64,000 bases of DNA from Polaribacter sejongensis. GTDB taxonomy: Bacteria; Bacteroidota; Bacteroidia; Flavobacteriales; Flavobacteriaceae. The stretch's first letter is position 1. The number at the start of each line of letters is the position of its first letter. The notes under the pieces were generated by a model. The model ran no database searches. It saw only the letters and a program-made list of their open reading frames with translations, and had not been told where the DNA came from. The DNA lies in NCBI RefSeq assembly GCF_038024065.1, contig NZ_CP150667.1:4099501-4163500 (forward strand), in the 5' to 3' direction. Below are positions 8,365 to 59,254 of the stretch, piece after piece. Both the position numbers and the translations under genes were made by a program.

Positions 8365-8429
8365 GATAAATTATAATCATAAGAGGGTAATTTTAAATAA
8401 AGGGTGTACGTTAATTTTATTTTTCTTTG
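8365..8429 (+). promoter_or_regulatory. Putative PUL operator and promoter, site 1 (GH16 unit)
   Basis: Half-site GATAAATTA at 8365 and half-site GGTAATTTT at 8386 form a direct repeat 21 bp apart. TTTCTTTG (5 of 6 specified bases of the TAnnTTTG -7 box) starts at 8422, 36 bp after the second half-site. The start codon is at 8471. The segment also aligns beyond the half-sites with the one upstream of susC 1 (shared TAATTAA before and AAGAGG within). Confidence 0.6.
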
Positions 8430-8470
8430 TAAGATTAAGTTTTAAAGCTTAATTTTTTAAAAAGAATAAA

Positions 8471-9478
8471 ATGATTATAAAAAGAATATTATTCCTTAGT
8501 ATCCCTCTTTTACTGCTAGCTTGTGGTAATCAAAAGAATGTTACAAAAGATGCCTCTGTTAAATCAGATACTAAAATTTTTCCTTTTTCAGACCTAACAA
8601 ATACAGGTAATTGGGTTTTAAATACGGATGCTTCTGATGAATTTGAAGATGATACAATAGACGAGGATAAATGGTACATTGTTGGGAAGTTTAAAGACGG
8701 GAAACCTTTTTACAAGCATCCAGATTTGCCAAACAAAAAAGTTTGGAAAGGGCGAGCTCCATCTCAATTTTCAGGAAGAAATTACCGTTTAGAAGATGGC
8801 AAACTAATTTTAGAAACTCGTTGGGAGCCAGATTTTCCTTTTTCTGATGATGTGCAAAAACCTTGGGGTAAAAAAGAAGGTGAAGTTGCTAAATTCGAAA
8901 ACTTAACAACAGCTTGTTTTATTGGTCGTAAATTCTTTAAATATGGCTATATGGAAATAAAAAGTAAAGCTGCAGATGCAGAAATTACAAGTGCTTTTTG
9001 GGCGATAGGAAATAAAACTGAATTAGATATTTTTGAACAATTTGGAGATCATAGACAACCTGTTAAAGAAGCAAATGGAAAAGACAGAGAGCTTTGGTGG
9101 TCTATACACGATTGGTCTAAAGAAGGGAAAGGTAAAAGTGTGTATACAGAGCATTTAGATTATGGTTTTAGAGTAGCAGATGATTTTCATGTATATGGAA
9201 TTGAATGGAATGAAAACGGACTAAAATTATATGTAGATGGAGTATACAAAACCGGCGCAACAAAAGAACAAGTAGATGCGTATGCTAAAGAAAAAGGCTA
9301 TCCTAACGGTTGGGTTATGGACGGAGCAATTTCTATTTGGTTAGATCAAGAAACGTTTCCTTGGCACGGAGTTCCAGATAGTAAAGAAGACTTAGAATTA
9401 AATAGTCCAGAGGGAGAAAAAGAGGACGGAGTTGTAGACTTCGAAATTGAGTATGTAAGAATTTGGCAAAAAAAATAA
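8471..9478 (+). CDS. GH16 family endo-galactanase-like lipoprotein
   Basis: 335 residues, lipobox LLAC (Cys18). Single GH16 beta-jelly-roll. The catalytic signature is ELDIFE, with nucleophile Glu184, assisting Asp186 and acid/base Glu189. Flanking motifs SDEFEDDTIDEDKW, WKGRAPSQF, GYMEIKSKA and FHVYGIEWNENGLKLYVDG match marine GH16 agarase/porphyranase/carrageenase-type enzymes. It should cut internal beta-1,4 galactosyl bonds of a sulfated galactan, tethered to a membrane. The GH16 subfamily (furcellaranase, kappa-carrageenase or porphyranase) cannot be fixed by eye. It heads its own unit behind operator site 1. Confidence 0.9.
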   Translation: MIIKRILFLSIPLLLLACGNQKNVTKDASVKSDTKIFPFSDLTNTGNWVLNTDASDEFEDDTIDEDKWYIVGKFKDGKPFYKHPDLPNKKVWKGRAPSQFSGRNYRLEDGKLILETRWEPDFPFSDDVQKPWGKKEGEVAKFENLTTACFIGRKFFKYGYMEIKSKAADAEITSAFWAIGNKTELDIFEQFGDHRQPVKEANGKDRELWWSIHDWSKEGKGKSVYTEHLDYGFRVADDFHVYGIEWNENGLKLYVDGVYKTGATKEQVDAYAKEKGYPNGWVMDGAISIWLDQETFPWHGVPDSKEDLELNSPEGEKEDGVVDFEIEYVRIWQKK

Positions 9479-9513
9479 TAGCAGTAATTAACCATTAACC
9501 TTAAATCAATATC

Positions 9514-9870
9514 ATGAAAAAAATCATTTTAATATTATTATTAGTAGTATCATTTTCTGCTACTTATGGGCAAAATAAATTTCAAGAAAGACAAAATAAA
9601 TACTTTGTAGAAGCAGCAGCGAAAGAATATAATTTAAACGAAGCTCAACAAAAAGAGCTTACAGAATTAAGAACAACAATGGTTGTAGCTTATGGAGAGT
9701 CTCAAAAAGAGGCAAAAGCAGGTACAATAACCAAAGAAGAAAAGAAAGCTAAAAACGGTGAAGCTAGTAAAGAATTTAACAATGGTGTTATTAAGTTAAC
9801 AGGAAAAAATTACAAAGAATTGGCTCCGTTTTTTAAGAGAATGAGAGAAGAATTAAAAGAGGTTAAATAA
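9514..9870 (+). CDS. Small secreted helical protein of unknown function (CpxP/Spy-like size)
   Basis: 118 residues with a signal peptide (to about residue 19, ATYGQ). The mature part is strongly charged and predicted helical, with Lys/Glu-rich stretches (TKEEKKAKNGEASKEF). Size and composition recall small periplasmic helical proteins of the CpxP/Spy/LTXXQ kind, but I see no diagnostic LTxxQ pair beyond LNEAQQKEL. It lies 35 bp after the GH16 gene and before a terminator hairpin, so it is probably co-transcribed with it. No function is assigned. Confidence 0.7.
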   Translation: MKKIILILLLVVSFSATYGQNKFQERQNKYFVEAAAKEYNLNEAQQKELTELRTTMVVAYGESQKEAKAGTITKEEKKAKNGEASKEFNNGVIKLTGKNYKELAPFFKRMREELKEVK

Positions 9871-9887
9871 CTTTTTTTAGAACAAAA

Positions 9888-9930
9888 AAAAGGTTGCTTT
9901 CTAATTAATGATAGAAGGCAACCTTTTCTT
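9888..9930 (+). terminator. Rho-independent terminator
   Basis: AAAAGGTTGC pairs with GCAACCTTTT, and an inner TTCTA/TAGAA extends the stem. It lies 18 bp after the small secreted protein gene. The 3' side is only moderately T-rich (TTTTCTT). Confidence 0.75.
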
Positions 9931-9969
9931 AGTTTACAGCATCAATTTTATTATTAATAATACCATCAA

Positions 9970-11460
9970 ATGAAAAAAATAGTAACTATTATTTCTGCCT
10001 TTTTTTTATTAGCAACAATTAGTTGTACTTCCACTAAAGATAAGAGCAATTCTAAAACAGTAGCAAAAACAACTTCAACTATTGAAACTCCTGCAAGACC
10101 AAACATTTTATTTATTTTATGTGATGATTTGGGATATTCAGATGTCGGTTTTAATGGATCTAAAGACATACCAACACCCAATTTAGATGCCTTGGCAAAT
10201 AACGGAACTATTTTTACTTCTGCTTATGTAGCACATCCTTTTTGTGGACCAAGTAGAGCAGCATTAATGACGGGTAGATATCCACATGAAATTGGAGCTC
10301 AATTTAACCTACCTCCAAATAGTGGAGAAACTATTAAGAAAGGAATCTCTTTAGAAGAAACTTTTATTAGTAAAGTGTTAGATGAAGCAGGTTATAATAC
10401 TGGTGCAATTGGTAAATGGCATTTAGGTTCTAATCCAGAATTTCATCCAAATGTAAGAGGTTTTGATGATTTCTTTGGTTTTTTAGGAGGAGGACATAAT
10501 TATTTTCCAGAGCAATATAGAAAAGCGTATGCACAACAAGAAGCTAATGGAAATAAATTAATTTGGGATTATTTACATCCATTAGAGCACAATGGTAAAC
10601 AAATAAAAGAAACAGAATATTTAACAGATGCCTTTTCTAGAGAAGCGGTTCGTTTTATTACAGATGCTGGTAAAAACGAAGATCCTTTTTTCTTATATCT
10701 TGCATACAATGCACCTCATACACCTTTAGAAGCAAAAGAAGAAGATCTTAAGTTGTTTTCTCATATAAAAGATAAAAAAAGAAGAACCTATGCTGCTATG
10801 GTGTATGCTGTAGATCGTGGAGTTAAAAGAATTTTACAATCATTAAAAGATTCTAATCAGTTAGAAAATACTTTAATTATCTTTTTAAGTGATAACGGAG
10901 GAAAAACGACTTCTGGAGCAACAAATTTTCCTTTAAAAGAAGGAAAAGGAAGTGCTTATGAAGGCGGTTATAGAGTTCCTATGTTTTTCAATTGGCCAAA
11001 TGTTGTGCCTGCGGGGAATACGTTTAATGCCCCAGTTTCTGCTTTAGATTTTTATCCAACTTTAGCAAAATTAGCAGGAGCAGAAATTCCTACAGGAAAA
11101 AAACTAGATGGTAAAAATATTTGGGATAATTTTTTAATGAATAAAGATTCTTATAAAGATGATAATATTTTTGTGATGCGTCACAGAAATGGTTTTAGTG
11201 ATGTTGGTGTTCGAAAAAATGATTGGAAAGCTGTAAAAGCATACAATCAAAAATGGAAATTGTTCAATATTACAAATGATATTGAAGAGAAAAATGATGT
11301 AAAAAATCAACATCCAGAAATCTTACAAGATTTAGTAAAAGATGCAGAAGATTGGAGTAAATTACATATTCAACCATTTTGGTGGCACAATGTAAAAACG
11401 GGTGTTGAATGGAAAAAAGATAATATGCCAAAGTTTGATGAAACTTTTAAATTAGATTAA
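9970..11460 (+). CDS. Family S1 sulfatase, lipoprotein (S1_19-like group)
   Basis: 496 residues, lipobox ISC (Cys19). FGly motif CGPSR with Cys92 in VAHPFCGPSRAALMTGRYPH; metal Asp52/Asp53 in CDDLGYSDVGFNG; GKWHLGSNP, FFGFLGGGHNYFP and LSDNGGKTTSGA are present. It is closely related to the sulfatases at 14854 and 33528, which share the AHPFCGPSR and GFLGGG(H/K)NYF blocks, so the three form a paralog group. Assignment to S1_19 (galactan sulfatases of carrageenan loci) is an inference from these motifs and the context. It stands alone between a terminator and the AraC gene. Confidence 0.9.
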   Translation: MKKIVTIISAFFLLATISCTSTKDKSNSKTVAKTTSTIETPARPNILFILCDDLGYSDVGFNGSKDIPTPNLDALANNGTIFTSAYVAHPFCGPSRAALMTGRYPHEIGAQFNLPPNSGETIKKGISLEETFISKVLDEAGYNTGAIGKWHLGSNPEFHPNVRGFDDFFGFLGGGHNYFPEQYRKAYAQQEANGNKLIWDYLHPLEHNGKQIKETEYLTDAFSREAVRFITDAGKNEDPFFLYLAYNAPHTPLEAKEEDLKLFSHIKDKKRRTYAAMVYAVDRGVKRILQSLKDSNQLENTLIIFLSDNGGKTTSGATNFPLKEGKGSAYEGGYRVPMFFNWPNVVPAGNTFNAPVSALDFYPTLAKLAGAEIPTGKKLDGKNIWDNFLMNKDSYKDDNIFVMRHRNGFSDVGVRKNDWKAVKAYNQKWKLFNITNDIEEKNDVKNQHPEILQDLVKDAEDWSKLHIQPFWWHNVKTGVEWKKDNMPKFDETFKLD

Positions 11461-11539
11461 AGGTTTATTTTGTTTTTTTATCAATGTTTATTGAATTAGT
11501 GAGTTAAAAATAGGAATTCAATTTCAAAAAATATTTTAT

Positions 11540-11547
11540 TATATTTG
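11540..11547 (+). promoter_or_regulatory. -7 promoter element just before the AraC-type gene
   Basis: TATATTTG is a perfect match to the Bacteroidetes -7 consensus TAnnTTTG and ends only 6 bp before the ATG at 11554. If used, the transcript would be leaderless or nearly so. No good TTG -33 box lies at the usual spacing. Confidence 0.45.
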
Positions 11548-11553
11548 TTAACA

Positions 11554-12420
11554 ATGAAACTCGTATTAAAAAAATCTGATACCCCTGTAAATAAAAAACT
11601 AGACATTTATACAAGAGATGTTCCTTGTTTAGATGCTGCGTGGCATTATCATAAAGAATTCGAATTACTGTATATTTCTAAAAGTAACGGAATTCGTTTT
11701 GTAGGTGATAGTGTTGCTCCTTTTTTTGCAGGAGATTTAGTTTTGGTTGGGTCTTATCTGCCACATTTGTGGAGGAATGATCCTTCTTATTACGAAGAAG
11801 AAAGTACCAAAGAGGTAAAGACTATTGTAACTAAATTTACAGACGATTTTTTAGGAAATGAGATTCTTCAAATGCCAGATTTTTACAACGTAAAAAAAAT
11901 ATTAGAAGAATGTAAGTTTGGTTTGTCTTTTGGAGAAAATGTGAGTAAGTTTTTACATAACGATATTATGTCACTTCCAAGATTGTCATCAACAGAAAAG
12001 CACATTAAAATTTTAAGTATTTTACATAAATTATCTTTGGTTGATAAAAAAGATAAAACAGTTTTATCATCCTCAGACATGAGGCAGACAACAACCACTG
12101 AAAGTTCTGAGCGTATAGATACGGTTTTAAAATTTATATCAGATAACTATGCTTCTAGTATTAGTTTAGACGATATTTCTAATGTTGCTTGCATGACAAC
12201 AAATTCTTTTTGTAGGTTTTTTAAAAAAATGACGAATAAATCATTTACCCAGTTTTTAAATGAAATTCGTATTCGAAATGCTTCTAGAATCTTGGTGCAA
12301 GAAAATTTACCAGTTTCAGAAATCTGTTATATTGTTGGTTTTAATTCAATTACTAATTTTAATAAACAATTTAAACAGATAATGGGTTCTACTCCAAAGA
12401 AGTTTAGAGAAGATATCTAG
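11554..12420 (+). CDS. AraC-family transcriptional regulator
   Basis: 288 residues from ATG 11554; a TTG at 11545 would add three residues and is not needed. The N-terminal half is a cupin-like sensor domain (WHYHKEFELLYISK, GDLVLVGSYLPHLWRND). The C-terminal 100 residues carry the two helix-turn-helix motifs of AraC proteins (SLDDISNVACMTTNSFCRFFKK and PVSEICYIVGFNSITNFNKQFK, ending GSTPKKFRED). It has no signal peptide or membrane segment, so it is a cytoplasmic one-component regulator. It is the only AraC-type protein in the window, lies inside the PUL, and is the best candidate to bind the 21-bp direct repeats described here. The inducer is unknown, probably a monosaccharide. Confidence 0.92.
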   Translation: MKLVLKKSDTPVNKKLDIYTRDVPCLDAAWHYHKEFELLYISKSNGIRFVGDSVAPFFAGDLVLVGSYLPHLWRNDPSYYEEESTKEVKTIVTKFTDDFLGNEILQMPDFYNVKKILEECKFGLSFGENVSKFLHNDIMSLPRLSSTEKHIKILSILHKLSLVDKKDKTVLSSSDMRQTTTTESSERIDTVLKFISDNYASSISLDDISNVACMTTNSFCRFFKKMTNKSFTQFLNEIRIRNASRILVQENLPVSEICYIVGFNSITNFNKQFKQIMGSTPKKFREDI

Positions 12421-12498
12421 TCTCTTATTTCTTTTTTATTTAAGTACAATAACAGTTTTCCTTTATTTTATAAAGAGTATATTTTTTATCAATCACAA

Positions 12499-12528
12499 AA
12501 TGGTAGCTTATGATAATAAGCTACCATT
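12499..12528 (+). terminator. Hairpin between the AraC gene and the GH16 gene
   Basis: AAATGGTAGCTTAT pairs with ATAAGCTACCATTT around a short loop. There is no long T run after it, so it is a weak or bidirectional terminator at best. The right arm contains the first half-site of operator site 2 (GATAATAAG at 12512), so hairpin and operator overlap. Confidence 0.5.
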
Positions 12529-12576
12529 TGTGGTTAATATTAGCTTAATTCTATGCTAATTTATCATGTATTTTTG
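12512..12576 (+). promoter_or_regulatory. Putative PUL operator and promoter, site 2 (T9SS GH16/sulfatase unit)
   Basis: GATAATAAG at 12512 and GTTAATAT at 12533 are 21 bp apart. TATTTTTG, a perfect TAnnTTTG box, starts at 12569, 36 bp after the second half-site. The second half-site is one base off G(G/A)TAA. The start codon at 12596 leaves a leader of only about 15 bases. I looked here because the other sites predicted it. Confidence 0.5.
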
Positions 12577-12595
12577 GCGTTAAACTAAAATATAC

Positions 12596-14842
12596 ATGTA
12601 TTTAACAAAACTGCATTTTCCGACAACTTTTAAATATAGTGTTGCTTTCATGATGATATCATTATGGGGTTTTACTATAAATGGACAAACATTGCCATTC
12701 TCTGATCCTCAAAATACAGGAGATTGGATTTTAAACACTGATATTTCAGACGAATTTGAAGCAGCTACTATAAATGAAGATCAATGGTTAATTCAGGGTA
12801 GAAATGGAAAATATCAATCTAATTTTATAGGTAGAGTTCCTGCTCAGTTTTCTACAGATAATGCAATTTTAGAAGACGGAAAGTTGAAAATTCTTACAAA
12901 ATGGGAACCAGATTATCCATTTACAAAAGATAATAGTGGCAATCAATTAGGTGTGTATAATGGAGTGTCTAAACCAATAACTACTGCGGCTGTAATTAGT
13001 AAAAAACAATTTCAATATGGATATATGGAAATTAAATCTAAAGCAGCAAATGCAGAAATAACAAGTGCTTTTTGGACTACAGGTCCAGGACCAGGAAAAC
13101 CAGGTGGAGCAGCTGAATTAGACATGTTCGAAATGTTTGGAGGTCATAAAACCAACGACGCTTGGAAAAAAAGGTTAAAGCTTAATATTATCAGTTGGGA
13201 CCCAAATAATGAAATTTTTAAAGAACAAAAAGAACTTGGTAAAATAGGTACAACACATACAAGAAATATACAAGCAGCAAATAATACAGCAGATGATTTT
13301 CATGTATATGGTTTTGAGTGGACTGCAGAATATATAAAAGTTTACATTGATGGTGTTTTACATCCAGATGGTACAATTTTAAAATCTGTTTTAACAAAAA
13401 ACGGAGCAGAACCAGATAGATGGGTAACAGATGTTCCTTCTTGGATTTGGTTTGATTCTGAAACTTTCCCTTGGTTAGGTTTGCCAGATGCTTCAGATTT
13501 GCAGACTCCAGCAGAATATCAAATAGAATATATTAGAGTTTGGCAAAAACAAACAGGTAAAATATCTATTATTGGAACTACTGATGCTATTGAAGGAACT
13601 ACTGATGGAAGTTTTAAAGTAGCATTACCAAACGGCGAGATTGCTACAGAAGATATTAATGTTACCTATTCAGTGGATGGAAGTGCAACGGAAGGAACAG
13701 ATTATACTACAATACCAAGAACAGTTACTATAGCAAGCGGAACGAATTCATCTGAAATAATTATTGACGCTGTTGAAGACGGAATTGAAGAAGATCCAGA
13801 AACAGTTACCATTACTTTACAGTCTTCTAGTTCTAAAACAGTAGATACAACTGTAGTGAGTATTTCTATATCAGATTTTGTTGCATCTACAACGTTAACG
13901 GCTGGAGACATTGCAATAGTAGGTTGGAAATCTGTAAGCGGAAAGCTTGCGTTTATGCTTTTAAAAGATATTAGTGCAACAACAAAATTATCAATTTCTA
14001 ATAGGTCTTGGAGCAATGCTTCTAATGGATTTATAGGAGATTTTACGGTTGATGATATTTGGACTTGGACTGCAGGAAGTGAGTATAAAACTGGAGATAT
14101 TTTGATGTTAGATTCAGACGGACAAATTAAACAAGTTGTTGGTAATACTGAAGTTGTCGTAGGTACAACTGCTCATGATTATACAGGGAAAGTAGATCAA
14201 ACAAGTGATGGCGATTTTGATATCTCGGTAAACGGAGAAGGAATCTTGATTTTTCAGGCAGATCCTTTTGCATTACCAACAAACGGAAATTCGACAGCGT
14301 GGATAGCGGGTATAAATACTTCTCAAGGTTGGGGAGTTGGTGGAGGGAATTCCTATAGCGAATTACCATTTGCCTTAACAAACGGCATAAATGCAAATAG
14401 TGTTGGAGAGAAACACGATTTTGGCGTTTATAAAGGTGCTTTATCTGGCACACCTACGCAATTAAGAGCAAGTATTAATAATGCAAGTAATTGGATTTTC
14501 TCTGAAGATACAACCTACAATTTGTGGTCATTCAATAAAACGATTAATGATACTGCAGGAGATATTGGTATTGCTGGTACTTTGCTTGTATCAACGCAAT
14601 CTAAAGGTCAATTTACTATTTTTCCTAACCCAGCAAATGAGGAACTTTCTATTAATTTTGGAGAGGCACAACAGACTTTAGAAATAGAGATTTTTGCGGC
14701 CTTAGGGAAATCAGTAAAAAAAGTAAAGGAAAGTAATGTTCTTAACTCTAAGTTAAGTGTTTCTAACCTATCATCAGGAACCTACATTCTATCAATTATA
14801 TCAGAAAATACGAAACAAACTAAAAGAATCATTATTAAATAG
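12596..14842 (+). CDS. Secreted multidomain GH16 with Calx-beta, repeat module and T9SS sorting domain
   Basis: 748 residues. A signal peptide (residues 1-30, ending GFTINGQ) is followed by a GH16 catalytic domain (about 34-320) with ELDMFE (Glu174, Asp176, Glu179). Next come a Calx-beta domain (about 325-430; EGTDYTT, IIIDAVEDGIEEDPETVTI), a module of about 200 residues (432-650) almost shared with the next gene, and a C-terminal T9SS sorting domain (FPNPANEELSINF...GTYILSI...KRIIIK). It is expected at the cell surface or in the medium, making the first cuts in the galactan. It is the only GH16 in the window with T9SS export. The next gene starts 12 bp later. Confidence 0.9.
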   Translation: MYLTKLHFPTTFKYSVAFMMISLWGFTINGQTLPFSDPQNTGDWILNTDISDEFEAATINEDQWLIQGRNGKYQSNFIGRVPAQFSTDNAILEDGKLKILTKWEPDYPFTKDNSGNQLGVYNGVSKPITTAAVISKKQFQYGYMEIKSKAANAEITSAFWTTGPGPGKPGGAAELDMFEMFGGHKTNDAWKKRLKLNIISWDPNNEIFKEQKELGKIGTTHTRNIQAANNTADDFHVYGFEWTAEYIKVYIDGVLHPDGTILKSVLTKNGAEPDRWVTDVPSWIWFDSETFPWLGLPDASDLQTPAEYQIEYIRVWQKQTGKISIIGTTDAIEGTTDGSFKVALPNGEIATEDINVTYSVDGSATEGTDYTTIPRTVTIASGTNSSEIIIDAVEDGIEEDPETVTITLQSSSSKTVDTTVVSISISDFVASTTLTAGDIAIVGWKSVSGKLAFMLLKDISATTKLSISNRSWSNASNGFIGDFTVDDIWTWTAGSEYKTGDILMLDSDGQIKQVVGNTEVVVGTTAHDYTGKVDQTSDGDFDISVNGEGILIFQADPFALPTNGNSTAWIAGINTSQGWGVGGGNSYSELPFALTNGINANSVGEKHDFGVYKGALSGTPTQLRASINNASNWIFSEDTTYNLWSFNKTINDTAGDIGIAGTLLVSTQSKGQFTIFPNPANEELSINFGEAQQTLEIEIFAALGKSVKKVKESNVLNSKLSVSNLSSGTYILSIISENTKQTKRIIIK

Positions 14843-14853
14843 AAACTGAAACT

Positions 14854-17820: not shown

Positions 17821-17846
17821 TTAAGAGATTTTTTTTTCAACTAAGG

Positions 17847-17875
17847 ACTCGCAATATTTATTGCGAGTTTTTTTG
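17847..17875 (+). terminator. Rho-independent terminator
   Basis: ACTCGCAATA and TATTGCGAGT form a perfect stem with a short loop, followed by a run of seven T. It closes the GH16/sulfatase unit. Confidence 0.85.
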
Positions 17876-17950: not shown

Positions 17951-18015
17951 GGTAAATTAGTGTCAACAAGAGGTAAGATTCATAAAAATAAGGTGGTTTA
18001 TTTTTTGGAAATTTG
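17951..18015 (+). promoter_or_regulatory. Putative PUL operator and promoter, site 3 (susC 1)
   Basis: GGTAAATTAG at 17951 and GGTAAGATT at 17972 are direct repeats 21 bp apart. GAAATTTG (5 of 6 bases of the -7 box) starts at 18008, 36 bp later. The 13-mer TTAATTTAACATA about 20 bp upstream recurs at the same relative place before the second susC. The start codon is at 18077. Confidence 0.65.
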
Positions 18016-23135: not shown

Positions 23136-23200
23136 GGTAAAATAGGGTTAAGAGTTGGTAAATTTAATTAACAGCTTCTTTCTAAATTATACTTACTTTG
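23136..23200 (+). promoter_or_regulatory. Putative PUL operator and promoter, site 4 (MFS operon)
   Basis: GGTAAAATAG at 23136 and GGTAAATTT at 23157 are direct repeats 21 bp apart. TTACTTTG (5 of 6 of the -7 box, and the same octamer as at site 7) starts at 23193, 36 bp later. The start codon is at 23271. Confidence 0.65.
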
Positions 23201-31467: not shown

Positions 31468-31531
31468 GGTAAAATAGGAATATGATAAGGTACAATAAAG
31501 GAACTATTTCTACATTTTATTTCGGTTCTTG
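31468..31531 (+). promoter_or_regulatory. Putative PUL operator and promoter, site 5 (VCBS/sulfatase unit)
   Basis: GGTAAAATAGG at 31468 and GGTACAAT at 31489 are 21 bp apart. A weak -7-like GGTTCTTG starts at 31524, 35 bp later. The first half-site is identical to that of site 4 for ten bases. The start codon is at 31585. Confidence 0.55.
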
Positions 31532-35029: not shown

Positions 35030-36637
35030 TTATATAGAAGTAATGAAACTGGTGAGATTTTGATGTCTTTCCAGTTTCATTTTTTTACGCAATCTGTGTC
35101 TTGCAACGTGCACGCTACCTAAAGAAATTCCTAAAAGGTGTGCCATTTCTTTGCCTGAAAAGTTAAGTTTTATCAGTGCACAAAGCTTTCTGTCTGCTCT
35201 ACTTAAATCGGGTACTTTTTCTTGTAAACGATCATAAAAACCCTTGTTAAGTTGATTAAATCTTCTATTAAAAGAATCCCATAAACTGGTAGAGCTTCTT
35301 TCGATCGTTTTTAAAATTATTTTTGATTTGTTTCCCGGATTTGCTTCTTTAATAAAATCGCTTAACTGTTTTATTACTTGTTCTTTTTCTATTAATTGAA
35401 GCGTGTTTGTGGTGAGTTCCTTATTCTTAACGTCTAATAATTCTTTAGAGTTTTGCTGCTTTTTTTCAAACTTTAAATTTTTAATTCTTTGTCTAAAAAT
35501 TAAGGTTAAAATAATTACTAAAAATAGGATGATAAACAGCGTAATTCTAAAATTAAGAAGGGCTTCTTTCTCCTTAGCCAATTCTAAGTTTTTAATATTT
35601 AATTGCTCTCTTTTTTTTATAAGTTCTTCTTTGTAATAGTTTTTAATGGTTAAAAAACCTTTGTTTTTTTCGTTTCTAGGGTTTAGTAAAGCGTTGCTGA
35701 TATCATTAGATTTTTTTTCATATTCATAGGCTAGTGAAAATAAATTTAGTTCTTTTAAAACTTCCGCATAGCGTGAGTATAAAAACGATTTATAGAAGGT
35801 TGTTTCTCCTAAATCTCCCTTTATTTTAGCGAATTTTTCAAAATAAAATTTGGCTTTATTAAGGTCTTTCTTTTTATGATAGATGATTGCTATTCTGCCA
35901 TAAATAATTAGCAAAAACTTCCTGTCCTTGTTTTTTAATCCAGAATTTGGTGCACTGTTTTCTAATTGCTGTGCTGCATTTTTTAGTAGTTTTAACGCTT
36001 CATCTGGAGCATTATTCCACTCACTAATGCTTGCTTTTTTTTCGTCAAGAAAAATAGAATAGATAGGAGGTAGTTTCGTTTTTTTTGAAAGAACAATACA
36101 ACTATCAATATAAGATTGTAGGTTTTCTTTGTCTGTAATACGTTGATAATGTAAAACTAAATTATAATATGATTTGTAAATTTCTGATACGTCAATTTTG
36201 TGATGCTTATATAGTTTTCTATATAGTTCATGGGCTTTAATGAAATAGCTTTCAGATTCTTCGTTTTGTTTATATAAATAGGTTAAAACACCTAATTCTT
36301 CATTGGCTTTTGCTATTAAAAGTTGGTTCTTATATTCTTCGGATATAAAAAGGGCTTCACCAGCAAAACTAAACGCTTCTAGGTAATTTAATTTAAATCT
36401 ATTAAACCTACTTTGAGTAATAAGGGTGTTAATTAACAAAGTGCTGTCTTTTTTTATGAGCGCTTGTTTTTTTGTTTTAGTTAAAAAAATAGAAATAGAA
36501 TCAAAAGGCATATTTAAAGGAATTATATGCTCTTTAAAATGAGTTTTTAATTGCTGTCCTTGTAAACACTGTAAAACACTAATGTTAAGTATAATTATAA
36601 GGTAAAAATTTTTTTGTAAGTTATTTAATGTTTTCAT
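35030..36637 (-). CDS. Membrane-anchored TPR sensor with C-terminal LuxR-type HTH
   Basis: 535 residues. A signal sequence or first membrane segment (about 11-27) precedes a periplasmic tetratricopeptide-type helical region (about 60-330). A single membrane helix follows (ITLFIILFLVIILTLIF), then a coiled-coil linker, and a cytoplasmic helix-turn-helix of the LuxR/GerE kind near the C-terminus (DLSRADRKLCALIKLNFSGKEMAHLLGISLGSVHVARHRLRKKM). This is a one-protein transmembrane regulator common in Bacteroidetes. It is the only well-supported complete minus-strand gene and lies in the middle of the locus, so it may regulate part of it. Ligand and target are unknown. Confidence 0.88.
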   Translation of the reverse strand: MKTLNNLQKNFYLIIILNISVLQCLQGQQLKTHFKEHIIPLNMPFDSISIFLTKTKKQALIKKDSTLLINTLITQSRFNRFKLNYLEAFSFAGEALFISEEYKNQLLIAKANEELGVLTYLYKQNEESESYFIKAHELYRKLYKHHKIDVSEIYKSYYNLVLHYQRITDKENLQSYIDSCIVLSKKTKLPPIYSIFLDEKKASISEWNNAPDEALKLLKNAAQQLENSAPNSGLKNKDRKFLLIIYGRIAIIYHKKKDLNKAKFYFEKFAKIKGDLGETTFYKSFLYSRYAEVLKELNLFSLAYEYEKKSNDISNALLNPRNEKNKGFLTIKNYYKEELIKKREQLNIKNLELAKEKEALLNFRITLFIILFLVIILTLIFRQRIKNLKFEKKQQNSKELLDVKNKELTTNTLQLIEKEQVIKQLSDFIKEANPGNKSKIILKTIERSSTSLWDSFNRRFNQLNKGFYDRLQEKVPDLSRADRKLCALIKLNFSGKEMAHLLGISLGSVHVARHRLRKKMKLERHQNLTSFITSI

Positions 36638-46472: not shown

Positions 46473-46536
46473 GGTAATTTTGATATGTTAAAAGATACAA
46501 TTCAGCAATTTCATATGAAAATAGCGCTGTAATTTG
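46473..46536 (+). promoter_or_regulatory. Putative PUL operator and promoter, site 6 (sulfatase/VCBS unit)
   Basis: GGTAATTTTG at 46473 and GATACAAT at 46494 are 21 bp apart. TAATTTG (a -7-like box one base short) is within GTAATTTG at 46529-46536, 35 bp later. The flank TATGGTAA and the end TACAAT are shared with site 5. The start codon is at 46574. Confidence 0.55.
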
Positions 46537-48226: not shown

Positions 48227-48237
48227 AGGAAACGTAA

Positions 48238-50151: not shown

Positions 50152-50177
50152 TATTTTTCATAAAACTTCAATTTAGG

Positions 50178-50203
50178 AAGCCTCATTTTTTGAGGCTTTT
50201 TTT
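50178..50203 (+). terminator. Rho-independent terminator
   Basis: AAGCCTCA and TGAGGCTT pair around TTTTT, followed by a T run. It ends the sulfatase/VCBS unit. Confidence 0.85.
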
Positions 50204-50232
50204 ATAATCATTAAACTTTAAAAAAAAATACT

Positions 50233-51684: not shown

Positions 51685-51748
51685 TTTTCAATAGTATTTT
51701 ACCATTAGTATAAAATTACCTTTTTATATTAATTTAACATACATTAAG

Positions 51749-51813
51749 GATAAAATACAGTAATGATAAGATAATTGCCACATATACATAATTCCGATTA
51801 TACTGTTACTTTG
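51749..51813 (+). promoter_or_regulatory. Putative PUL operator and promoter, site 7 (susC 2)
   Basis: GATAAAATA at 51749 and GATAATTG at 51770 are 21 bp apart. TTACTTTG, the same -7-like octamer as at site 4, starts at 51806, 36 bp later. The 13-mer TTAATTTAACATA just upstream also occurs at site 3. The start codon is at 51920. Confidence 0.65.
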
Positions 51814-51919
51814 TAGCTGTAATTTTATGTTAAAAAAAGAAAGACTATAAATTAGCAATTGTTTTTTGCCATAAGATTACAGAATCAATCAAGTTCAATT
51901 AAGTTCAAAAATTAAATAG

Positions 51920-54900
51920 ATGAAAATTTTAAATTTATTATTGAGGAAAGCTAAAGCAGGTAGTTTCTTGCTTTTACTCTTCGCCTTGTTGTGTCAGTTT
52001 AGCACTAATGCACAATCAATTAAGGTATCTGGAACTGTAACTAGTTCAGAGGATCAGGGGCCAATTCCTGGTGTAAGTGTAATTGTTAAGGGAACTCAAA
52101 ATGGGGTTTCAACAGATTTTGATGGACTTTTCTCTATCAAAGCTAATGTTGGAGATATTTTAGAGTTTAGTTACATTGGTATGATACAGAAAAATCTTAA
52201 GGTTAAAAATGCAACCATGAGTGTTGTTTTAGACCCTTCTGTAGAAAGCTTAGAAGAAATAGTAGTAATTGGTTATGGTACAGTAAAAAAGAAAGAAATT
52301 ACTGGGGCAGTTGTTCAAGTAAAAGCAGAAGATCTAGAGAGTATTGTTAGTTCAGATTTAGGAGCTGCTTTACAAGGGCAAGTATCTGGGGTAAACATTG
52401 TTTCTTCTTCAGAACCAGGAGGAACATCAGAAATATTAATTAGAGGTGTTACTTCATTATCTGGAGACAATACACCTTTATATGTTGTTGATGGTGTAAT
52501 ACAAGATGGAGATCCAGGAATTCCACCTTCAGATGTAGAAACTATTAACGTATTAAAAGATGCTGCTTCTACTGCAATTTATGGGGTTCGTGGAGCTACT
52601 GGTGTAATTTTAATTACTACTAAACAAGGTAAACCAGGTTCTTTACAAGTTAGAGTTAATGCTAGTTATGCTATTCAGCATAGAAGAGCAGCTGTGCCTT
52701 TAATGAATTCTGTAGAACAAACTTATTTTGATGTTGTACAGAGTAGAAATGTAAACGGGAGTTATGATGACCAGGTTAGTTTACAGATTTTACAGCAGCC
52801 AAGATCCTTTTTAAATGAAACGAATTTAAGCGATTTAATCTTTACGAATAATGTACCAACACAAGACTATAATATAAATGTTTCTGGAGGTACAGAAGAT
52901 ATTACGTATAATGTTTCTACAGGATTTTTTAGTCAAGAAGGATTACAAATTAATTCAGCATATAACCGTTTTAATATTAGAGCAAGTACAGTTTACGAAA
53001 AAAATAAACTAAGAATTCAGTCTAGTGTTTCTATGAATAAAGATACTAGAGATATTCCTCAGGGAAATCTTTTATCACAATCTATTGTGTATAGACCAAC
53101 TCAAAACGGACTTAATTTAGATAATTTAGATGAATTGTCTCAAGGTGGAGATGATGTAAATAGATTAGGTTGGGTTATTGAGAGTTTAAGAACAACCAAT
53201 GTATATAAAACTACAAGAGCTGCAGCAACACTTAATTTAAAATATCAAGCTACAGAACATTTAAGCCTTTCTAGTAATTTAGGTTTAACATCTATAAATA
53301 GTATTGGTAAAATTTACAGACCTTATCAAGAGATTTATAATAACCAAACACCACCGGTTTTACAAAGTCAACCAGAAGATAGTTTTGTTTCTAACAGAAC
53401 TCGATTTACAACGAATACGATAGCAGATTTTGGAGCTACTTATAGCAGAGTATTTGATGAAAAGCATGATGTAACACTTACAGCTTTTATAAATGGAGAA
53501 AAAAATGAAAGTGAAGCTTTTACAGCAACAAGAAATGGAGCCACTAATGATGATGTTCAGGTTTTAAATGGAGCAACTGGTACTCAGTTTGTTTCTTCTG
53601 GAAATGATTATGAGCAAACAAGAATAGGTTTAATAGGAAGACTTCAGTATAGTTATAAAGGAAAATATATTTTAAGTTCTAGTTTACGTAGAGATGGTTC
53701 TTCTAAATTTCCGGTAGATAATAGATGGGGAACTTTTCCTTCAATCGCATTAGCTTGGAATGTTTCTGATGAACCTTTCTGGGATAAATACAAAAATGCA
53801 GTTAATAACTTTAGACTTAGATTAAGTCAGGGTACTGTTGGTGTAGATAGAATTGGAGATTATTTATATTCTGCAGGTATTTCTCAAGATATTAATTACG
53901 CAACTTCTAACGGTTCTGTAAGTTTAGGAGCTACTCAAGAAAACTTTGTAAACAGAGTTTTAAAATGGGAAGAAACAACACAACAAAACATTGGTTTCGA
54001 TTTTGGGTTCTTAAGAAACAGATTAACGCTTTCAGCGGAATATTATCACTCAGATAAATCGAACATGTTATTTCCAGTTTTTATTCCTAATTCAGCAGGT
54101 GGTGGTAACAATGCAACTGTAGTTTTAAATGTTGGAGATATGGTTAATTCTGGATTAGAATTAGCGTTAGGTTTTAGAGGGAATATTGGTAATGTTAGAT
54201 ATAGAATGAATGGTACATTCTCTACAAACCAGAATGAAGTTACAAAAATTAGTGGAGATACTAAATTTCAATTAACTACAGACAGTGGTTTAGTAGGTAG
54301 AGCACCACAACAATCTAGAGTTACTGCATTGGCAGTTGGTCGTGAGGCAGCAGCTTTTTTCTTATGGAGAACAGACGGAATTTTAGATACAGAAGTAAAA
54401 CTTGCAGAATACCAAAACAATATTGATAGAAATGCAAGAATGGGAGATACGAAGTTTATAGATCAAAATAATGATGGTGTTTTAGATGAATCAGACAGGG
54501 TTTATAGTGGTAGTGGATTACCAGAATATGAATTAGGATATACTTTTAACGCAAACTATAAAAATTGGGATTTTTCAATGAACTGGTATGCTGCATTAGG
54601 GCAAGAGATAATGAATGGTTTTGATGCTTGGGCATATGGTTTTGGTAGACATAAAGATCAAATTTATCAATGGTCTCCACAAAATCAAAACTCTACAGTA
54701 CCAACTTATAGAAACGATGTTACAAGACATAACAACTATTTAGGGTATAGTGATCTTTGGTTAGAAGATGGTTCTTATTTAAGATTAAGACAAGTTTCTA
54801 TGGGATATAGTTTTCCTAAAAATACCTTAGACAAAATGGGACTTAGCAGATTGCGTTTTTATGTAAGAGCTCAAAACCCATTAACTATTACTAAATACTC

Positions 54901-55006
54901 TGGTTACAATCCAGAAGTAGGTGGGGGAATACAAGCAAGAGGTTTAGATAAAAATACTGGACCAATATCCTCACAATATATGTTAGGAGTAAACATTAAT
55001 TTTTAA
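51920..55006 (+). CDS. susC: SusC-type TonB-dependent outer-membrane transporter 2
   Basis: 1028 residues. Signal peptide (ends STNAQ, about 32), carboxypeptidase-D-regulatory domain (KVSGTVTSSEDQGPIPGVSVIVKG), the SusC signature around LEEIVVIGYGTVKKKEITGAV, a plug with GVILITTKQG, and a barrel ending in GVNINF. It differs enough from SusC 1 to suggest a different oligosaccharide or size range. It is followed 21 bp later by susD 2 and then a surface glycan-binding lipoprotein, the classic surface complex order. Confidence 0.93.
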   Translation: MKILNLLLRKAKAGSFLLLLFALLCQFSTNAQSIKVSGTVTSSEDQGPIPGVSVIVKGTQNGVSTDFDGLFSIKANVGDILEFSYIGMIQKNLKVKNATMSVVLDPSVESLEEIVVIGYGTVKKKEITGAVVQVKAEDLESIVSSDLGAALQGQVSGVNIVSSSEPGGTSEILIRGVTSLSGDNTPLYVVDGVIQDGDPGIPPSDVETINVLKDAASTAIYGVRGATGVILITTKQGKPGSLQVRVNASYAIQHRRAAVPLMNSVEQTYFDVVQSRNVNGSYDDQVSLQILQQPRSFLNETNLSDLIFTNNVPTQDYNINVSGGTEDITYNVSTGFFSQEGLQINSAYNRFNIRASTVYEKNKLRIQSSVSMNKDTRDIPQGNLLSQSIVYRPTQNGLNLDNLDELSQGGDDVNRLGWVIESLRTTNVYKTTRAAATLNLKYQATEHLSLSSNLGLTSINSIGKIYRPYQEIYNNQTPPVLQSQPEDSFVSNRTRFTTNTIADFGATYSRVFDEKHDVTLTAFINGEKNESEAFTATRNGATNDDVQVLNGATGTQFVSSGNDYEQTRIGLIGRLQYSYKGKYILSSSLRRDGSSKFPVDNRWGTFPSIALAWNVSDEPFWDKYKNAVNNFRLRLSQGTVGVDRIGDYLYSAGISQDINYATSNGSVSLGATQENFVNRVLKWEETTQQNIGFDFGFLRNRLTLSAEYYHSDKSNMLFPVFIPNSAGGGNNATVVLNVGDMVNSGLELALGFRGNIGNVRYRMNGTFSTNQNEVTKISGDTKFQLTTDSGLVGRAPQQSRVTALAVGREAAAFFLWRTDGILDTEVKLAEYQNNIDRNARMGDTKFIDQNNDGVLDESDRVYSGSGLPEYELGYTFNANYKNWDFSMNWYAALGQEIMNGFDAWAYGFGRHKDQIYQWSPQNQNSTVPTYRNDVTRHNNYLGYSDLWLEDGSYLRLRQVSMGYSFPKNTLDKMGLSRLRFYVRAQNPLTITKYSGYNPEVGGGIQARGLDKNTGPISSQYMLGVNINF

Positions 55007-55027
55007 TTTAATATAAACTTATTTGTG

Positions 55028-56812
55028 ATGAAACAATTAATTTTTAAATATTTTATATTCATTTTTACTTTAGGAGTGTTAAGCTCTTGTGATGCAGATG
55101 AATTTTTAGAACAAAAGAACCCAAACTTAATATCTACAGATAATTATTGGAGAAATTTAGCGGAAACTCAAACAGGTTTAAATGCTGTTTATCAAACACT
55201 ACATAAACCAGCTATTTTAAATAAGTTTGAAGAAATGTTACGTTCAGATATGGGATATCCTGGTTATGGTCGCCCAAATCCAAACAATACAGAAGATTTC
55301 TATTTACACTTATATAATGGAAGTAGTTTGGCAATCTTAAATAAATGGCAAGATTCTTATTTAGGTATTTTTAGAGCAAACCAAGTAATTGAAGCTTTAA
55401 ATAATATAAAAGAGACAGCAACAGATGAAGCAGAATGGACTTCGCAAATGGCGCAAGCACGTTTCTTTAGAGGGTTATTTCACTTTTATTTACACACCAC
55501 TTTTAATAATGGAAGTATTATTATAAGAGATGCGGTACCTGCTACCAATGAAGATTTTTCAAAAGCATTATCTCCTGCGTCGGATGTAATTAGTTTTGTT
55601 AGAGAAGATTTAGAATATGCGTATGCTAACTTGTATAAAAATGGAGAATACCCAGACAATGATTTGGCTAAAGTTACTTCTGGTGCAGCTGCAACAATTT
55701 TAGGTACTAGCTATTTATACGAATTAGACTATAGTAAAGCAATGGTTTATTTTGATGATGTAATTAATAATCATGGTTATTCTTTAGAAACAGATTTAAC
55801 TAAGATGTTTACAACTGCTGGTGAATTTAATAGAGAATCTATTTTAGAAATTAATTTTTCTGAAGAAAACACAAGATTAGATTTACCACCTTGGGATGGA
55901 GATTCAGGAACAAACTGGATAAACGTTCGTACAGCACAAACACGTTCTGCAACTGGACCAGCATGGATTGTAAATGCATACAAAACAGAACCTATGGATC
56001 CTTTAGATTCTAGAAATTACTATACAGATCCTAACACATCTAGCGTTAGTTTAAGAAGCGTACCATTAAGAAACTCTTCTATGATGGCGGTTGTAGACGA
56101 CAATGAAACAACGTATTACTTAACAGGAACTACTAGTGAATACGGTAGATTTGGAGGAGCCAATTGGGGCTTCGGTTGGTGGAAAAAGTACACCAATGAT
56201 GATATTGTTTCTACAGAAAGTCAACTTCCTGGTGGACAAGCATATTCTACTAAAAATGTAACTCTTAATAGATTGGCAGATGTTTTATTAATGCAAGCAG
56301 AATGTAAAATAAAAACAGGTGATGTAGAAGGAGCAATCAAATTAATAAACCAGATTAGAAAAAGATGGGGATTGGTGCTTTTAGGAAGACCAAATGGAGA
56401 TACTACTCGTACGTATGACAAAGAAGATACTGATGCAGAATACACGGCAGATGAATTGATGCAACGTTTAATGAGAGTTGAAAAACCTTTAGAAATGGGA
56501 GTAGAAGGTCATAACATAAGATTTTTAGATTTCCAAAGATGGAAAAAATCTGATAACTATGGTTTTAAAGACCGATTAAAAGAATTGTCTGAAGAAGTAT
56601 ATTACGGAGTAGACTTTTCATATACAAAAAGAAGTAATAACCAAACGGTTACAAGAGGTAATTTTCCTTCATTAGTAAACGAATTACCAACAGTAAATTC
56701 TACTGCTGTAGATTATGAATATGATACACCATATTTAAATTATGATGAAGCTAAAAATGGTACGTATCCTATTCCTTTTGCAGAGGTAAATTCTAACCCA
56801 AACATAAATTAA
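55028..56812 (+). CDS. susD: SusD-type surface glycan-binding lipoprotein 2
   Basis: 594 residues from ATG 55028; a GTG one codon earlier is not preferred. Lipobox LSSC (about Cys21). SusD/RagB features: LNAVYQTLHK, ARFFRGLFHFYLHTTFNNG, NRLADVLLMQAECKIKTGDVEGAIKLINQIRKRWG and a C-terminal LEMGVEGHNIRFLDFQRW. It would form the lid on SusC 2. The next gene follows after 10 bp. Confidence 0.92.
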   Translation: MKQLIFKYFIFIFTLGVLSSCDADEFLEQKNPNLISTDNYWRNLAETQTGLNAVYQTLHKPAILNKFEEMLRSDMGYPGYGRPNPNNTEDFYLHLYNGSSLAILNKWQDSYLGIFRANQVIEALNNIKETATDEAEWTSQMAQARFFRGLFHFYLHTTFNNGSIIIRDAVPATNEDFSKALSPASDVISFVREDLEYAYANLYKNGEYPDNDLAKVTSGAAATILGTSYLYELDYSKAMVYFDDVINNHGYSLETDLTKMFTTAGEFNRESILEINFSEENTRLDLPPWDGDSGTNWINVRTAQTRSATGPAWIVNAYKTEPMDPLDSRNYYTDPNTSSVSLRSVPLRNSSMMAVVDDNETTYYLTGTTSEYGRFGGANWGFGWWKKYTNDDIVSTESQLPGGQAYSTKNVTLNRLADVLLMQAECKIKTGDVEGAIKLINQIRKRWGLVLLGRPNGDTTRTYDKEDTDAEYTADELMQRLMRVEKPLEMGVEGHNIRFLDFQRWKKSDNYGFKDRLKELSEEVYYGVDFSYTKRSNNQTVTRGNFPSLVNELPTVNSTAVDYEYDTPYLNYDEAKNGTYPIPFAEVNSNPNIN

Positions 56813-56822
56813 AAGATATATC

Positions 56823-58604
56823 ATGAAAAATATAAAAAATTATATACTTTTCTTCAGTTTACTGGCCTTGCTAAGTTGTGAAGAAGATTCTTATAAAGGG
56901 TACACAGCACCAGATGATTTGTCTGATGTTTCATGGCTTATTGGTTTAGATCCAAATAGACCAAATATAGATGCAAAGTTTAAAGTAAATATAGATACTT
57001 ATATTTCTTTTTTCGATTTATCTCAAGGAGCAACAAGTCACGAATGGATTTTAGAGGATGGAGATCATTTTCTAAAAGATGGTTTCACTTCTAGCGATAC
57101 TTTATCAAAATTTATTAATGAAGACGTTGGTTTGTCTAGTTCAGAAAGTAAGGCACATGTTTTATTTGGTAAAAGTGGTTTAACTAAAATTAGATTACGA
57201 AATAAATTTACTGAAGAAGTAAGTCCTAATGTTTCGGAGGATAGAGCAGCGTATGTTATAGCAAATTCATCAACAGAAGGAGATGAACATATAATGGACG
57301 TAGAGTTTTTGTTTGATGTTTATGCAAATATTTTACCTGCTTTTTCAGTTTTAAAAGACGGTGCAGAAGTATTAAATGTTACAGAAACAGATATTCCTGA
57401 TATTAAAGATGAAAGTACTTGGCCAGTTATAGAAGTAGAGGCAGCAACCGGATTAACTTTTGTAGATAAATCTACTACCGGAAGACCTAACAGAGTAACG
57501 TGGTTAATTCCAGATGGAGTACCTAGTCAGGCAGGTACTTTGGCAGAATTATCTCAAGATGTAAAGTTTTATAAATTGGGTACCTATAATGCAGGAACTA
57601 TAAGATCTTTAAGACAAGTACAAACTGTAGATGGAGTAGAAGATAATGCACCAGTGGCTTCAGCTGAAAAAATTATACCTTTAAAAGTGAAAGTAATTCA
57701 GTCTTCACAACCTTTTGTTTTTGACAAAGCATTAACAGAAAATGAAAATGAAGTAATAGAGTTTAGAGTAACTGGAGAGTTAAAAGCATTTTCTGGAGAA
57801 GAAGCTAATTTTACTGTGAATGTAAAAAACGCTGCTAAAGGATTAGATGAAGATTTCACTGTGCAAACAGCTAGAGTAAAAGAAGGTAATGCCACTTTTA
57901 TTGAGTTAATATTATCCGCACCAATTTATAATTCTGATGTAATTACGGTTTCTTATAATGGTACAACTATTCTTTCTGCAGACGAAAGAGTGTTAGCTCC
58001 TTTTGCAAATCAAAAAGTACAAATGCATTTTGATAATAATGTTTTACCATCAAATTCTTGGGGTAGTTTTGAGCCTGAAGGAGGTGGTGTAAATAATGCT
58101 TTTGCAACAGGTAAGTTTTTTATTCCTGGAGGAAATGGAAATGGTCAGTTTGGAGCTGGAGAAGAAATTTGGGCACGTAGCACAGATCAAGCTTACGCAG
58201 GTGGTGCTAGTATGAGATATAAACTGCCAAATGTTGCTATACCTACTGTAAACCTTTTTGGTTTTGGTTTAGCAGATGGTCCAAATGGTATGCCAGCAGG
58301 AACTTACCAAGTGTCTTATTGGGTGTATGTAGAGCCTGGTACAACCTTAACTACTTTTAGAATGGAATTTGGTAATCCTGTTTTAGATTATTTACATTTT
58401 GATATCTCAAGTATCGAAAAAGGTAAATGGGTGCGTGTATTCGCAGATGCACCTGCTGTTATTCCGGCAGATTTAACAAGCAGTGATGCAAAAAGAAGAA
58501 CTACATTAAGAGTTTTAGCAGAAGATAATGTTGGAATTACTACTGCAGAACAGTTGATGTATTTAGATGAGTTAACACTTATTAAATTAGAAGATAGACC
58601 ATAA
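56823..58604 (+). CDS. Surface glycan-binding-like lipoprotein (SGBP/SusE-F position)
   Basis: 593 residues, lipobox LLSC (Cys19). It has two PKD-like beta-sandwich segments (ATSHEWILEDGDHFLKDG; LTFVDKSTTGRPNRVTWLIPDG) and a C-terminal jelly-roll-like region (about 400-590; NNAFATGKFF, ASMRYKLPN, YQVSYWVYVEPG) resembling carbohydrate-binding modules. No catalytic residues are seen. Directly after susD 2 in the same operon, it fits a surface glycan-binding protein that traps polymer for the SusCD pair. Confidence 0.8.
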   Translation: MKNIKNYILFFSLLALLSCEEDSYKGYTAPDDLSDVSWLIGLDPNRPNIDAKFKVNIDTYISFFDLSQGATSHEWILEDGDHFLKDGFTSSDTLSKFINEDVGLSSSESKAHVLFGKSGLTKIRLRNKFTEEVSPNVSEDRAAYVIANSSTEGDEHIMDVEFLFDVYANILPAFSVLKDGAEVLNVTETDIPDIKDESTWPVIEVEAATGLTFVDKSTTGRPNRVTWLIPDGVPSQAGTLAELSQDVKFYKLGTYNAGTIRSLRQVQTVDGVEDNAPVASAEKIIPLKVKVIQSSQPFVFDKALTENENEVIEFRVTGELKAFSGEEANFTVNVKNAAKGLDEDFTVQTARVKEGNATFIELILSAPIYNSDVITVSYNGTTILSADERVLAPFANQKVQMHFDNNVLPSNSWGSFEPEGGGVNNAFATGKFFIPGGNGNGQFGAGEEIWARSTDQAYAGGASMRYKLPNVAIPTVNLFGFGLADGPNGMPAGTYQVSYWVYVEPGTTLTTFRMEFGNPVLDYLHFDISSIEKGKWVRVFADAPAVIPADLTSSDAKRRTTLRVLAEDNVGITTAEQLMYLDELTLIKLEDRP

Positions 58605-58619
58605 TTTAAATTAGAAATA

Positions 58620-59024
58620 ATGATGAAAAATATAATAAAATATATTGCCGTTTTTGCAATCGTTTTGGCATTCACTTCTTGTGACGAAGAAAGCAATTTT
58701 GAAGAGTCTAGGACAGCTTTAACACCAGTATATACCATTACAGACATTACAGGTAATAATGCCGCTTTTAAAATTAATATATACAAAGAAGTAAGTGTAA
58801 TTGTAGAATATTCTACAGAAGTAAATTTAGAATCTTACACATCTTCTGGTTTTACAGACTCTTCTACAGAGACTAATTTTGAAGTAGAAGTAAATAAGTT
58901 AGACGATGAAGCAACTGTAAATTATATTTTATCTGCGGATAAAACAACAGGAGAAGGAACGCTAACTGTAGACGGAACGACTGTTTTTAATGTAAAAGTT
59001 TCTGAAGAAGAAGTTTATAATTAA
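58620..59024 (+). CDS. Small lipoprotein of unknown function
   Basis: 134 residues, lipobox FTSC (about Cys21; a second ATG at 58623 is equally possible). The mature part is acidic and beta-rich (Ig-like in appearance), with many Thr/Ser. It is the last gene of the second susCD operon, 15 bp after the glycan-binding lipoprotein, and is followed by a terminator. No family recognised; an accessory surface protein is plausible. Confidence 0.7.
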   Translation: MMKNIIKYIAVFAIVLAFTSCDEESNFEESRTALTPVYTITDITGNNAAFKINIYKEVSVIVEYSTEVNLESYTSSGFTDSSTETNFEVEVNKLDDEATVNYILSADKTTGEGTLTVDGTTVFNVKVSEEEVYN

Positions 59025-59046
59025 TATTATTTTTTTAATTAATAAG

Positions 59047-59078
59047 AAAGGCTACAGATATCTGTAGCCTTTTTTTGT
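59047..59078 (+). terminator. Rho-independent terminator
   Basis: AGGCTACAGAT and ATCTGTAGCCT form a perfect 11-bp palindrome stem followed by seven T. It ends the susCD 2 operon. Confidence 0.88.
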
Positions 59079-59189
59079 TTTTAACTAAATTATGTTTTTT
59101 ATTTATCTAAATGATATAAAAGTTATCTTACAAGTATTAAAAATAATTTTTTAAACTTTCTTTATTTACCTTTTAAGTAGGAATTAAAA

Positions 59190-59254
59190 GGTAATATATG
59201 ATTTGTTTTAGATAAAAATGAAGCCTACCAAAAACAGCTTATTATTTACTTTTA
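59190..59254 (+). promoter_or_regulatory. Putative PUL operator and promoter, site 8 (catabolic operon)
   Basis: GGTAATATATG at 59190 and GATAAAAATG at 59211 are 21 bp apart. TACTTTTA (5 of 6 bases of the -7 box) starts at 59247, 36 bp later. The start codon is at 59319. A separate palindrome CCTTTTAA/TTAAAAGG overlaps the first half-site. Confidence 0.55.

Follow-up and report, generated by a model that had tools for sequence, protein, structure and literature searches.

A stretch of 64,000 bp from Polaribacter sejongensis (NCBI RefSeq assembly GCF_038024065.1, contig NZ_CP150667.1, positions 4,099,501 to 4,163,500 of the forward strand), hereafter called the window, encodes according to Pfam sulfatases, four GH16, two GH127 and one GH2 proteins, two SusC/SusD pairs and an MFS sugar transporter, as well as one operon for an enzyme of the enolase superfamily, an aldehyde dehydrogenase and an HpcH/HpaI aldolase. 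This content shows a putative sulfated-galactan locus. The enolase-superfamily enzyme is dauB-like and matches PDB entry 5olc (3e-146), and a GH127 protein matches 5mqo (7e-151); the names dauA and dauB are taken from the pathway of Zobellia (PMC5698469). A gene for an AraC-family regulator of 291 amino acids (aa) is linked in the window to the dauA/dauB and GH127 genes. Here we consider a promoter pattern repeated before eight units of this locus, which combines two short direct half-sites, spaced by 21 bp, with a −7 box at a fixed distance downstream, and for which the AraC protein is a candidate reader.

Promoter pattern repeated in the window

The repetition of this pattern at eight units is real. 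All eight pair positions given by the initial annotation, and the positions of its −7 octamers, turned out to be right on recheck of the window (Table 1). The description of the half-sites as G(G/A)TAA-type holds for seven of the eight pairs, which are GRTAM/GRTAM with exactly 21 bp between their starts, and fails for the pair 12512/12533, where GATAA is combined with GTTAA, the one-base-off half-site that had been cautioned about from the beginning. The placement of the TAnnTTTG-like octamers stood as well, their wording did not: exact TAnnTTTG is present at one of the eight sites (12569), and this box was replaced by TWANTTTG, taken from relatives.

Pairs of the half-site pattern GRTAM were counted at all spacings from 5 to 60 bp on both strands of non-coding DNA. 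On the + strand seven pairs were registered at 21 bp and no more than two at every other spacing, the number of GRTAM starts in + strand DNA not covered by listed genes being 29, with seven of them past position 62721. The − strand non-coding DNA of the window has zero pairs at 21 bp. The non-coding set included positions 62722–64000, which carry part of a − strand gene and contain no 21-bp pair. For the shuffling control suggested by the initial annotation, 23 upstream regions with 3003 bp in all were shuffled 2000 times with their dinucleotides preserved. Versus the seven canonical pairs of the window, this control gave a mean of 0.025 and a maximum of two pairs at 21 bp, and the combination of a pair with TTTG at +39/+40, observed five times, appeared at most once.

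Table 1. Proposed operator pairs with their −7 boxes and associated genes (scores from a matrix built on relatives; background, 400 kb sample)
Feature	Position	Strand	Half-sites	Box (start)	Unit that follows	Score and remarks
operator pair with box	8365..8429	+	GATAA/GGTAA	TTTCTTTG (8422)	GH16 gene 8471	31.2, above all background
non-canonical pair with box	12512..12576	+	GATAA/GTTAA	TATTTTTG (12569)	gene 12596, GH16 with type IX secretion system (T9SS) label	13.3, one background match higher
operator pair with box	17951..18015	+		GAAATTTG (18008)	SusC/SusD operon 18077	32.7, conserved in L082
operator pair with box	23136..23200	+		TTACTTTG (23193)	MFS/GH16/sulfatase/GH16/GH127 operon 23271	41.5, best of the region
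operator pair with weak box	31468..31531	+	GGTAA/GGTAC	GGTTCTTG (31524)	VCBS/sulfatase unit 31585	16.1 (box part −0.3), one background match higher
operator pair, box one base nearer	46473..46536	+	GGTAA/GATAC	GTAATTTG (46529)	sulfatase/VCBS unit 46574	18.3, one background match higher
operator pair with box	51749..51813	+		TTACTTTG (51806)	SusC/SusD operon 51920	33.2
operator pair with box	59190..59254	+		TACTTTTA (59247)	dauB-like/aldehyde dehydrogenase/aldolase operon 59319	23.7
candidate pair absent from the initial annotation	2624..2688	+	GATAA/GATAA			19.0, one background match higher
AraC-family regulator, 291 aa	11545–12420	+				Pfam HTH_18/HTH_AraC
secreted-type protein gene, 3' part	63124..64000	−				promoter with operator just past the window end

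When scored with a matrix derived from relatives only, five of the eight sites, together with one past the window end, exceed the whole 400 kb of background. The sites at 31468 and 46473 are indeed weaker, as had been cautioned, and the site at 8365 aligns with those of the related loci L082 and L083. More ambiguous is the pair at 12512. A terminator-like hairpin located 3' of the AraC gene (12486–12535, −24.8 kcal/mol when folded) has a loop with which the first half-site of this promoter overlaps. Outright dismissal of the site on account of the hairpin and the GTTAA half was nevertheless withdrawn, because the element is kept in L082, the nearest relative, and because GRTAM-21-GTTAA recurs in relatives (nine cases, six of them with TTTG at +40). 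Among the same relatives the nine GRTAM/GTTAA pairs at 21 bp are not above the numbers at other spacings (up to 10).

One promoter missed by the initial annotation belongs to the same set, and probably a second one does. The first is situated just past the window end on the − strand (L029:260, window-equivalent 64260), scores 31.5 and has the box TAATTTTA at +36. In the other, at 2624, the pair lies within the final codons of the open reading frame (ORF) 54–2669, and the box in the gap before the sulfatase gene 2722. Directly upstream of the window there are two further SusC/SusD pairs recognized by Pfam (L028:5008–9555 and L028:9693–14572), with no operator pair before either, and they are therefore probably under other control. 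An intergenic GATAA/GATAA pair with 21-bp spacing and no obvious −7 box was noticed ~24 kb before the window begins (L006, genome position 4075789, + strand). A terminator-like hairpin was seen by eye at 9871–9969, 3' of an ORF of 118 aa.

Conservation around AraC orthologs

Proteins with at least 50% identity to the AraC protein of the window were taken as orthologs. Among 299 genomes of the family that were searched, 11 besides the window's own carry an ortholog (60–76% identity), one of them with a second copy (55%), and the next relatives do not exceed 43%. Within at most 20 kb to either side of the gene, contig ends permitting, these 11 genomes contain 50 pairs at 21 bp, with four at the next spacing, and every genome has at least three of them. 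TTTG is found 40 bp past the start of the second half-site in 27 of the 50 pairs (five at the next offset). The scan of named genomes gave 58 AraC loci, including 55 with at least 50% identity, which come among others from Saprospiraceae bins, Labilibaculum, Draconibacterium, Dyadobacter and Algoriphagus. These 55 loci contain 156 pairs at 21 bp and no more than eight at other spacings; 54 loci are positive, and the lone one without a pair is an 8 kb contig.

Ten named loci duplicating the 11 genomes were omitted from the matrix, as were three non-orthologs (L135, L138 and L139, 27–32% identity), whose loci have 0 pairs at 21 bp; a Flavobacterium algicola AraC relative with 50% identity (L136:10001–10846) was left out of the protein alignment A1, as this range cannot be translated in a single frame. 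After removal of repeats 173 sites remained, and a pair was present in 55 of 56 sources. TTTG stands at +40 in 99 of these sites, another 12 have it one base off (+39 or +41), and the next offset (+7) accounts for 18. At −33 no conservation was observed in the sites found in relatives of the window's AraC.

A strict pattern combining pair and box occurs in all 12 genomes with an ortholog (39 matches, 31 of them no farther than 60 kb from the AraC gene) versus 53 of 287 genomes without it (Fisher p 5e-9). The reversed control pattern was found in five of the 12 (8 matches) and in 43 of the 287, so that the excess is confined to genomes with orthologs and the frequency elsewhere is near chance level. 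We also inspected 21 paralog loci, picked from a longer list of AraC relatives: eleven lower-scoring ones (35–39% identity) have no 21-bp pair, whereas among ten higher-scoring ones (36–43%) four loci contain five such pairs, each accompanied by TTTG at +40.

The first gene behind the site matches some protein of the window locus at 140 of the 173 sites in relatives. Among them are SusC (43) and dauB-like (23) proteins, sulfatases, GH16 and GH127, and the secreted protein with the promoter just past the window end is the first gene seven times. Six of the 33 unmatched first genes were analysed by Pfam: two encode 2-keto-3-deoxygalactonokinase, one a KDPG aldolase and one a GntP permease, and of the other two one has a GH129 match below cut-off and one is without a match. 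Judged by their predicted domains, the tested unmatched first genes are additional steps of the anhydrogalactose pathway. The supposition of a locus-wide regulon, expressed already in the initial annotation, is therefore supported, because the pair and its distance to the box recur around AraC orthologs before genes of like kind.

Candidate regulator and competing explanations

The protein encoded at 11545–12420 has an AraC-type double helix-turn-helix DNA-binding domain, as expected for class II regulators of the AraC/XylS type, and its predicted model gives matches to the AraC regulatory domain in the N part and to AraC-type DNA-binding domains. The half-site geometry of the same class, with 21 bp and a fixed offset of the box, is found in seven pairs of the window and in the 173 sites of relatives. 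This protein is the likely reader of the operator, and it is highly probable that the pairs serve as operator for a single soluble activator of the AraC family, which would control an anhydrogalactose regulon. Its binding to the pairs is what we infer, its activating role would follow from the geometry of the sites, and its ligand may be 3,6-anhydrogalactose itself or one of its near degradation products. In such a scheme two AraC subunits would occupy two direct half-sites with the consensus ~RGRTAAAATA, separated by two helical turns. The promoter-proximal half-site would reach approximately −33, upstream of the fixed −7 box TWANTTTG, so that the activator could replace the missing −33 element (class II activation). 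The ligand would then be the common inducer of transport, depolymerisation and desulfation as well as of sugar catabolism.

The same arrangement bears on the sign of control, which is not given by sequence alone. Some AraC-type regulators are repressors, and the protein might bind and repress without ligand, the sugar releasing this repression. We regard this as very unlikely, since the half-sites lie upstream of the −7 box and the start, not over them, and the lack of a conserved −33 element suits activation. Moreover, Zobellia in which cgrA, the gene for the AraC-family regulator of its carrageenan regulon, has been deleted shows impaired growth on carrageenan (PMC5698469).

The sites might also be read by a different regulator conserved with the locus, for instance the 535-aa protein encoded at 35030–36637 (− strand), or by an unlinked hybrid two-component system (HTCS). 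HTCS regulators of Bacteroides likewise use direct repeats of ~21 bp (PMC3878776), and the 535-aa protein shows weak regulator-type matches in NCBIfam, with no Pfam match. This explanation is nonetheless unlikely, as the 535-aa protein was matched in 10 of 56 ortholog sources, in seven of them only over ~150 residues, against 55 of 56 for the sites (10–20 kb per side covered), and no fusion of histidine kinase with AraC occurs among the Pfam matches of the 36 window proteins scanned. The HTCS class was also rejected for the AraC protein itself, which is a soluble protein of 291 aa with the AraC DNA-binding domain alone by Pfam and an AraC regulatory domain in its N part, no kinase or receiver domain having been found. 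The 535-aa protein is encoded by the sole − strand gene inside the locus and is possibly a second regulator.

Assignment of the operator to the soluble AraC activator was further compared with the CgrA (ZGAL_3159) carrageenan regulon of Zobellia galactanivorans, where an AraC-family regulator likewise stands beside dauAB, GH127 and sulfatase genes (PMC5698469). Relative to this type of locus the window has in addition four GH16 genes recognized by Pfam and two susCD pairs. Two genomes, G001 and G236, have a locus in the order ZGAL_3145–3159 and carry the same operator before matching units; the AraC protein at the place of cgrA is 38–39% identical to that of the window. For CgrA itself no operator sequence appears in the accessible part of PMC5698469. 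The sites of the two genomes precede a unit of dauBA with a symporter gene (identified by Pfam as RhaT in G001), two GH127 genes, a distal susC (53–57% identity) and, in G001 only, a gene for GntP permease. According to the accessible part of PMC5698469, ZGAL_3155–3158, ZGAL_3145–3150 and ZGAL_3580–3581 rise on 3,6-anhydro-D-galactose (D-AnG), ZGAL_181 is likewise induced, and ZGAL_3151–3154 do not respond. None of the 23 one-mismatch matches in G001 and G236 lies before the place of ZGAL_3151–3154. From gene order, and leaving the place of ZGAL_181 aside, we infer that the units behind the sites in these two genomes correspond to the D-AnG-induced units of Zobellia.

Several observations weigh against the assignment. 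The AraC gene served as anchor for every relative that was fetched, so that the sites could in principle follow another regulator conserved with the locus, and the strict pattern is present in the 53 genomes without a close ortholog, in some cases before other AraC paralogs. One-mismatch matches fall into the expected units in five of 14 cases in G001 and four of nine in G236; the remaining nine and five are off these units, some of them before other AraC-linked genes. Within the window the pair at 12512 is non-canonical, and the sites at 31468 and 46473 score below the best background match. Finally, bare GRTAA-N16-GRTAA is not enriched in the whole genome (201 matches versus 206 in the reversed control), nor is the pair of longer half-sites without the box (11 versus 12).

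Five of these 11 matches are nevertheless concentrated in the window, which makes up 1.4% of the genome, and all five are intergenic; the other six include five coding and one intergenic. For the pair accompanied by TTTG of the −7 box the genome gave 16 matches, five of them in the window, versus five in the reversed control. In the whole genome there is thus an excess for the pair with its box, and none for the bare pair. In a window with 32% GC, lack of enrichment of the bare pair could suggest an extended ordinary sigma promoter or a product of chance in AT-rich DNA rather than a regulator site. Such an origin is hardly credible: the pattern is absent before the two neighbouring susCD operons and around the 11 lower-scoring AraC paralogs, dinucleotide shuffles give no more than two pairs at 21 bp, and the pairs are present in ortholog loci with 44–52% GC.

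Known operators and a possible common promoter layout

The kind of element is already known from Bacteroides HTCS regulators, which have an AraC-type DNA-binding domain and direct repeats averaging 21 bp, that is, two helical turns, upstream of operons in polysaccharide utilization loci (PMC3878776). The distance to the −7 box, measured here for the window operator, is not stated for HTCS operators in the accessible part of the same paper; a figure legend in PMC5061871 has predicted BT0366 sites and −7 boxes marked on the same promoters. A SusR-like operator was rejected as a class, its repeats being 67 or 77 bp apart (PMC3878776) versus 21 bp in the window. Relevance of the Vibrio regulator described in PMC12125979 is limited to direct repeats. 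Searches of the open-access literature, paywalled papers and supplements lying outside the scope, showed no title on an operator of CgrA or of an anhydrogalactose AraC regulator. To judge from what we have seen, the regulon is new together with its candidate regulator, and so are the promoter layout with its fixed distances and the spread of this layout over distant ortholog loci.

E. coli AraC occupies at araI1–araI2 direct half-sites 21 bp apart, of which the one nearer to the promoter extends to the −35 region. The window operator shares this spacing, and the window protein shares matching folds of the N domain and the DNA-binding domain; the sigma factor, the −7 box and the half-site sequence are all different. 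One can assume that soluble AraC regulators of Bacteroidota have one promoter grammar in common, with half-sites starting at about −69 and −48, a −7 box from −12 to −5 and no −33 element, an assumption which in our opinion has an even chance of being correct. Its geometry would be that of E. coli araBAD on a different sigma factor. A second class of AraC-linked promoters has a GGATAATATAGTA-type half-site, the 21-bp repeat and TTTG at the same offset (L227–L233, L205 and L214). It precedes dihydrodipicolinate-synthase-like genes (Pfam for L205, the rest by eye) adjoining an AraC paralog of 25–34% identity, and its layout was detected in seven of 397 genomes, the 21-bp spacing being prescribed by the search pattern. 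Two AraC paralogs (L211, G001:C10:178294, and G184:C1:1750437) seem to have their own 21-bp pair and box directly upstream, which suggests putative autoregulation in another regulon. If the shared grammar is true, regulons of many paralogs could become readable from sequence.

Marine Bacteroidota recycle galactans of red algae, and little is known about switching of their utilization loci. The analysis yields for one such locus one operator, one candidate regulator and a defined set of promoters, including those missed by eye, and it offers an explanation for the partial response of the Zobellia carrageenan locus to D-AnG. The rule was recovered around orthologs as far apart as those of Flavobacteriaceae, Saprospiraceae and Labilibaculum and is testable in tractable strains, so that the whole set of algae-digesting genes may be read as a single switchable unit.

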